In this document: piece after piece, positions 28,753 through 30,436 of the stretch | How positions within the stretch are numbered: position 1 is the stretch's first letter | Layout: each line of letters starts with the position of its first letter | NCBI GenBank assembly: GCA_947306495.1 | Contig: CAMZGT010000001.1 | Span: 1 to 64,000, forward strand | Length of the DNA: 64,000 nt | Direction: 5' to 3' | Source of the DNA: an uncultured Acinetobacter sp. | Lineage (GTDB): Bacteria > Cyanobacteriota > Vampirovibrionia > Gastranaerophilales > Gastranaerophilaceae | Program-made: the position numbers and the translations under genes | The notes under the pieces: model-generated | What the model saw: only the letters and a program-made list of their open reading frames with translations | What the model was told of the DNA's origin: nothing | Database searches by the model: none

Positions 28753-29264
28753 CTCAATTGTTCAACAATTTTTAACACAGATTTTCGCAATGCTTCATAA
28801 TCCTTGTTATTGTCGATTATATAATCCCAGTCTTGAATATTATCCAGATCAACTTCAGTGACATCATCTTCTCCGATTAATTTACCGCCCCTAAGCTCTC
28901 TGTTTTCTCTGGATGTTTCAACTCTTATGGAAATCGCCCCTGCTGATTTGAATATTTCGTATTCATGTTTGATGCGAACATCCGTTACAACAATGCTACC
29001 TTCTTGAGAAACTATTTTATCTAACCAATAATCAGGACTTTGCTCTCTTCCCCAATTTCCTAAATCTATTAATCCTTGCCTGTATTTTGGTTTGTTTGCT
29101 TCTATTTCTTCATAACTTACATTATTCCGTTTTCCGTATTCTATTTTTATGATATCACCCATCGCACACCGCCTGTATTCAGGCATTGCTTCCATAAGAA
29201 TCTTTGCGGCAGTATCCTTTCCTGAATATTGTTTTCCCGAAAAAATTATTATATTATCAGCCAT
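28749..29264 (-). CDS. P-loop nucleoside/deoxynucleoside monophosphate kinase-like protein
   Basis: [22 protein letters not shown] Walker A; start MADNIII after ggaggaaaata RBS. Confidence 0.7.
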
Positions 29265-29481
29265 TATTTTCCTCCGGCAATGGATCATAGCCGCCTTCAT
29301 TTAGCGGATGACATCTGCAAATCCTTTTAATACCTAGCCAACAGCCTTTAATTACTCCATATTTTATAATTGCTTCTTTTGTATATTCTGAACAAGTAGG
29401 ATAAAATCTGCACCTTGCAGGTGTTAGTTTTGATATTTTTTGATAGCAATTTATTAAAAAAATTAAACCCTTTTTTAGCAT
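29257..29481 (-). CDS. yidD: Membrane protein insertion efficiency factor YidD
   Basis: [46 protein letters not shown]. Confidence 0.95.
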
Positions 29482-29537: not shown

Positions 29538-29564
29538 TAAAGTTTTGGAAAAAAGTGCCGATAA
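29538..29564 (+). promoter_or_regulatory. Sigma28 (FliA)-type promoter
   Basis: TAAAGTTT-N11-GCCGATAA, exact match to the textbook consensus, 28 bp before ATG 29593. Confidence 0.8.
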
Positions 29565-29592
29565 CATTAATACAGGAAATAGGGATCAAGAA

Positions 29593-30006
29593 ATGGCTCA
29601 ATCGTTCAATTTAAACACATTTTTACAAGAATATCAAACTTATACAAGTAAGTCATATACTGCTGCCGAAAACGGCAAAGAAGCAATGGAACAAAGAGAA
29701 ATTGCTAAAGCCGAAGAAGCAGTTAAATCGAGTGGTTTTCTGACTTTAACATTATCCGAAAAACTTGCCGAACTGGGTGTAGGAGAAAGAGTACTACAGC
29801 AATTTGCAGATACTGCAATGGATTTGCTTAAAGATGCCATTAATCCTCTTACCGATTATCTAAATAAATATGAAAACGTTTTTGATGAACAAATGTATAA
29901 TACAGAAATACAAAGCTTTGCGAAACAGATGTTCTTTTCCCGTCAAGCTCTTAGCCAAGAAGCAGCAGAGAATACTACCGGTCAAAACTTTGTAATGGAA
30001 ATGTAA
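29593..30006 (+). CDS. Uncharacterised 137-aa helical protein under a sigma28-type promoter
   Basis: MAQSFNLNTFLQEYQTYTSKSYTAAENG...; ATG 29593 lies downstream of the promoter, unlike the track start 29545. Confidence 0.75.
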   Translation: MAQSFNLNTFLQEYQTYTSKSYTAAENGKEAMEQREIAKAEEAVKSSGFLTLTLSEKLAELGVGERVLQQFADTAMDLLKDAINPLTDYLNKYENVFDEQMYNTEIQSFAKQMFFSRQALSQEAAENTTGQNFVMEM

Positions 30007-30036: not shown

Positions 30037-30067
30037 AAGAATCCTGCTCATAAAGAGCAGGATTCTT
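30037..30067. terminator. Bidirectional intrinsic terminator (convergent with rplT)
   Basis: aagaatcctgctc-ataaa-gagcaggattctt. Confidence 0.88.
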
Positions 30068-30085: not shown

Positions 30086-30436
30086 TTATAAAGCCGCTTT
30101 AGCTGCTTCAACAACAAGAGCAAAAGCTTCTTTATCGTTTACAGCAAGGTCTGCAAGCATTTTTCTGTTTACAAGAATGTTAGCTTTTTTGCAAGCATTA
30201 ACAAATCTTGAGTAGCTCATTCCTTGTTCTCTAACTGCTGCATTGATTCTAACAATCCATAAACGACGCATATTGCGTTTTGTAGCACGTCTGTCTCTGT
30301 AAGCATATTTAAGTGCTTTCATTACAGCAATGTTAGCAACTTTAAATATTCTGCTTCTTGCGCCCTTAAAGCCTTTTGCGAGCTTTAATATTTTTTTGTG
30401 TCTGTTACGACATACATTTCCACGTCTAATTCTCAT
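30086..30436 (-). CDS. rplT: 50S ribosomal protein L20
   Basis: [34 protein letters not shown]...[22 protein letters not shown]. Confidence 0.98.

Follow-up and report, generated by a model that had tools for sequence, protein, structure and literature searches.

A conserved sigma28-type promoter before a 137-aa helical protein gene suggests a FliA regulon retained without the flagellum

A sigma28-type promoter and its transcription unit

The window, a stretch of 64,000 nucleotides from an uncultured member of the Gastranaerophilales (contig CAMZGT010000001.1), carries an exact sigma28 promoter, TAAAGTTT-N11-GCCGATAA, at 29538-29564 of the forward strand. The −35 element TAAAGTTT (29538-29545, +) and the −10 element GCCGATAA (29557-29564, +) both match the consensus at every position and are separated by an 11-bp spacer. 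The start codon of a 137-aa helical protein gene (29593-30006, +), sigma28-dependent by its promoter sequence, follows after 28 bp, and the pattern expected of a sigma28 promoter, TAAA(GTTT)-N11-GCCGATAA close to a start codon, is thereby present. A longer open reading frame beginning at TTG 29545 is not the gene, since this codon falls within the promoter. All orthologs from the genus begin at an aligned M-(A/S/T) position, which agrees with the choice of ATG 29593 over 29545 in the initial annotation.

Downstream of the gene, a 13-bp stem with a 5-base loop and T-rich tails on both strands (30037-30067, +) has the features of a bidirectional intrinsic terminator shared with the convergent rplT gene (30086-30436, −). 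Because this terminator closes the unit, the 137-aa gene looks monocistronic. The rplT gene, with rpmI next to it, serves as a synteny anchor that adjoins the gene in most loci of the genus and in four genomes of the genus g36, and the rplT-adjoining layout was also observed in G143 and at locus L166. The divergent neighbor yidD (29257-29481, −; Pfam YidD, 1.5e-28) lies outside the unit. Its adjacency is uninformative; in the flagellin-less genome G057, yidD (L163:14530-14775) lies directly 3' of a second flhA gene instead. Elsewhere in the window, a second sigma28-like site with two mismatches (2356-2382, −) is located between glnA-like and recA-like genes, with a 46-codon open reading frame downstream.

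The exact promoter occurs once in the window, where 100 shuffles gave an expectation of 0. For the genome-wide scan, the final base was allowed to be A or T and the same pattern reversed was used as control. The 1.65-Mb genome contains 23 exact TAAAGTTT-N11-GCCGATAW sites with this spacing versus 0 for the reversed pattern. When up to three mismatches were accepted, 106 sites were found versus 71 in the control, indicating that three-mismatch sites are largely background and that only the near-exact ones are informative. Conservation in relatives was counted over genus loci with a readable upstream region (n = 30), and the promoter, −35 element included, is present in all 30 full-length orthologs, 53-61 bp upstream of the ATG and with 0-2 mismatches. 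Mean identity over these orthologs is 97% at the 16 core promoter positions, 85% in the spacer and ~70% in the flanks. A chance promoter-like sequence might be suspected in an AT-rich genome where sites with two or three mismatches are common by chance, but the expectation of 0 in the window, the 23 versus 0 genome-wide and above all the conservation in 30 orthologs, which we regard as having already refuted this explanation, leave it highly improbable. Judged by its sequence and conservation, 29538-29564 is a genuine sigma28/FliA-type promoter of the 137-aa gene, as the initial annotation had proposed.

A protein family with long and short forms

The 137-aa protein is encoded in 32 of the 34 genomes of the genus, the window's own included, and its orthologs in the 31 others share 32-70% identity. 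In most other genera, the long-form profile matches a short protein that aligns to residues ~61-126, the core common to the whole family. Comparison of the two forms by hhalign gave a probability of 98.7% and an E value of 1.6e-16 over residues 61-126. A profile built from the short form recovered family members, most often a single one per genome, from 125 of 147 genomes; these comprise 124 of the 125 sampled genomes of GTDB family f1 and G043, the latter being the only, and weak, detection among the order genomes sampled outside f1. The conserved core was found in all 91 flagellin-negative genomes sampled from f1, and the N-terminally extended 137-aa form is limited to the flagellated genus of the window. 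The description of the protein as lineage-specific therefore holds for the long form, not for the conserved half, which is present throughout the family.

The promoter accompanies the family as well. A sigma28-like element upstream of the homologs outscored shuffled sequences in 19 of 21 loci, in three of which the best-scoring site lay off the usual distance, and most of the further homolog loci inspected by eye also have such an element. An exact promoter precedes the short form in G143 and G157, and at a few homologs, such as those of G131, G120 and G160, the promoter is degenerate or unclear. On the basis of the homologous core, the position of the sigma28-like element and the convergent rplT-rpmI neighborhood, which outside the genus is found only in the four g36 genomes, the two forms are considered orthologous. 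By these features, the 137-aa protein represents a long version, specific to the genus, of a helical protein that measures 85-100 aa in its short form.

No significant Pfam or NCBIfam family was found for the 137-aa protein, flagellar, motor, chemotaxis and anti-sigma families included, in agreement with the initial annotation, and profile searches of the PDB with the long and short alignments identified no significant relative. A match to an LcrG-type chaperone of type III secretion reached only E values of 0.05-0.08 in 4 of 21 members and was rejected as insignificant, as was a weak match to DUF3856. An AlphaFold2 model from a three-sequence input consisted entirely of helices and, with a pLDDT of 45 and a pTM of 0.21, was too poor for a fold search. 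The sequence, judged by eye, has no evident signal peptide.

FliA, its targets and a second export system

The window's genome encodes a single clear FliA (contig C30; TIGR02479, 223 bits versus a cut-off of 189.6), so that the cognate sigma factor is present. Six Flagellin_N matches and a canonical FliF were also identified, bearing out the expectation of a flagellar regulon elsewhere in the genome, and a sigma28-like site (C37:3963) precedes the predicted start of the flagellin gene at C37:4057 by 43 bp. Flagellin and canonical FliF are present in all sampled members of the genus. In the window's genome, as in five flagellin-less genomes, fliA is isolated among unrelated genes and apart from flagellar ones, and its neighborhood in these six gives no clue to function.

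Across the order, Flagellin_N is absent from 92 of 147 genomes. Canonical FliF exceeds its curated cut-off in 53 of the 147, all of them flagellin-positive, and in 0 of the 92 flagellin-negative ones, and these 92 genomes are therefore treated as lacking a flagellum by gene content. FliA was detected in all 147 sampled genomes, in 143 of them above the curated cut-off. The cut-off of the Pfam FlgM profile (PF04316) is passed by the control species E. coli and B. subtilis but by none of the order's genomes. Seven of the eight weak FlgM-profile matches inspected belong to one unrelated protein family and were discarded; only that in G037 looked FlgM-like by eye.

About 25-40 sites closely resembling the sigma28 consensus were found in the window's genome. 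The recognizable first genes behind them encode flagellin, a GAF-HD-GYP protein, a glucosaminidase, a calpain-like protease and several proteins of an MGxxxSQ family, and many others encode unknown proteins. The 92 flagellin-negative genomes contain 71 exact sigma28 sites versus 3 for the reversed control. First genes were examined at 20 of these sites, and exact promoters were found before orthologs of at least four further genes that have a sigma28 promoter in the window's genome. These shared targets include the GAF-HD-GYP protein (~51% identity), a 57-aa protein (39%), members of the MGxxxSQ family and an 89-aa protein recognized by eye. Such orthologous targets in flagellin-less genomes are the strongest reason to propose a flagellum-independent FliA regulon.

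Several of the proteins encountered behind sigma28 promoters have features of their own. The MGxxxSQxR family (L093, L083, L087, L090, L163:1086-2060 and L177) has conserved N- and C-terminal ends around a variable middle, a layout like that of flagellin or other axial proteins; several members stand behind sigma28 promoters and, in G057, one is located close to the second flhA cluster. Two large proteins, both sigma28-driven by their promoters, share a common core by BLAST (L092:1142-3532 and L091:1589-3154), and the former contains a calpain-family protease domain (Pfam, 3.8e-8). A 54-57-aa protein ending in (I/L)PED(V/L) is kept with its sigma28 promoter in the window's genome (G000:C3:53869) and in flagellin-less relatives (L181, L183). 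In flagellin-less g36 genomes, 69-78-aa proteins matching no Pfam family follow exact sigma28 promoters (L173, L175).

A second, divergent set of flagellar-type export genes was also found. Some FliF match is present in 145 of 147 genomes, and a divergent FliF, typically scoring ~100-127 bits, occurs in almost every genome, in most flagellated ones in addition to the canonical FliF. Genes for homologs of FliE, FliH and FlhA are clustered with it both in the window's genome and in flagellin-less relatives (Pfam FliE, YscJ_FliF, FliH and FHIPEP). Among the genomes tested for FliP, 17 flagellin-less ones have one copy and three flagellated ones have two. The cluster of the window's genome spans G000:C5 17622-23678 (L161:10623-16679), with further examples at L162 and L163, and encodes a 330-344-aa protein of no assigned family between FliF and FliH; in G143, it borders on a transglycosylase gene and on rod genes resembling FlgB/FlgC/FlgG. 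Direct control of this cluster by sigma28 was considered and is not supported, as no sigma28 sites precede its genes in the loci scanned. The second FliF is also present outside f1, beyond the range of the 137-aa protein family except for the weak match in G043.

Interpretation and comparison with known systems

With the promoter-gene pair, FliA and the second export machine all kept after loss of the flagellum, the 137-aa gene is, by gene content, not simply a flagellar part. We assign a probability of roughly 0.6 to the explanation that it belongs to the core of a FliA regulon persisting beyond loss of the flagellum, and that its product most likely acts as a late component or as a regulator of the second export apparatus. 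RNA polymerase bearing FliA would recognize TAAAGTTT-N11-GCCGATAA and start transcription ~7 bp past the −10 element, and the resulting short monocistronic mRNA would end at the hairpin at 30037-30067. The encoded protein would be soluble and all-helical, a lengthened version of a small protein that is near-universal in the family and usually single-copy. The core FliA regulon would operate with or without a flagellar filament, and the protein would most likely act late in, or regulate, the divergent apparatus of FliE, FliF, FliH, FlhA and FliP, for which the sigma28 checkpoint of flagellar assembly may have been retained once the filament was lost. What the sequences themselves show is the promoter with its conservation, the presence of FliA, and the homologous family with its retention in flagellin-less genomes. 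The tie of the protein to the second export system is probable from their shared retention, a correlation that is weak because both are near-universal.

A serious rival holds that the protein is an anti-sigma28 factor that functionally replaces FlgM, binding FliA and leaving through the second export gate so that sigma28 activity is coupled to assembly. The family is usually single-copy, 85-100 aa long in most genera and helical, co-occurs with FliA whether or not the genome encodes flagellin, and is itself encoded behind a sigma28 promoter, as is flgM in Salmonella. In addition, the FlgM cut-off that the control species pass is reached by no order genome. However, the FlgM profile matched neither the short form nor any of the 21 long members scanned, the conserved core has no obvious FlgM motif, and FlgM is short enough for the profile to miss a real one. 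The small sigma28-driven proteins of L173 and L175 could also be the anti-sigma28 factors instead. We consider this role possible but rather unlikely. Comparably tentative is the idea that the family is an export-coupled anti-sigma28 or checkpoint protein of the second, filament-less flagellar-type machine for secretion, the checkpoint having been rewired in flagellum-less gut relatives to a new surface structure or secretome. The MGxxxSQ proteins with their conserved ends, the calpain-like protease and the glucosaminidase would belong to that structure or secretome, an assignment we hold just as doubtful.

The initial annotation had instead favored a late-flagellar or motility-coupled protein, which would be made together with flagellin under sigma28 and would serve the filament, stator or chemotaxis. 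Flagellin and canonical FliF throughout the sampled genus, and the confinement of the extended 137-aa form to this flagellated genus, are consistent with such a role. A protein serving motility only should, however, disappear with the flagellum, whereas the core persists in all 91 flagellin-negative genomes of the family, with sigma28-like promoters and FliA, and it matches no flagellar family. We therefore regard a motility role as improbable.

Returning to a FliA regulon that outlives the flagellum, what keeps FliA in bacteria that lack flagella has yet to be explained for Chlamydia and Legionella. Here, a single family with closely related flagellated and flagellin-less genomes and recognizable promoters makes the flagellum-independent core of the regulon readable by comparison and testable. 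The results also suggest that an order of gut and rumen bacteria shares a second flagellar-type export system, and they provide candidates for its substrates and regulators.

Class 3 flagellar genes of E. coli and Salmonella include fliC, flgM and yhjH. The consensus is the same here, and flagellin and an HD-GYP protein, with predicted c-di-GMP turnover, likewise lie behind sigma28-like sites; unlike in those species, most targets are unknown proteins and the regulon persists past loss of the flagellum. The non-flagellated Legionella oakridgensis keeps FliA and FlgM without a flagellar regulon (PMC5655016). As in that species, FliA outlasts the flagellum and so must control non-flagellar genes, but here no FlgM passes the Pfam threshold, a second set of flagellar-type export genes is retained, and promoters and targets are conserved family-wide. 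In Chlamydia trachomatis, sigma28 also occurs without a flagellum, alongside type III secretion genes of flagellar descent, and its regulon consists of hctB and tsp, for which the authors speculate on export-coupled sigma28 control (PMC10597470). Unlike this two-gene regulon, that of the window's genome would draw on its 25-40 or so sites, and the targets are unrelated. For the Gastranaerophilales, most genomes are described as holding a subset of flagella genes and being unable to make a flagellum, and the available portion of that account mentions neither FliA nor a sigma28 regulon, nor a second divergent apparatus (Soo et al. 2014, PMC4040986). A search without most subscription journals found no papers that treat sigma28 or type III secretion in these bacteria. 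FliA without flagella is thus already known from Legionella and Chlamydia; the new elements here are the protein family and a conserved regulon that is independent of the flagellum and has been retained together with a second flagellar-type export system.
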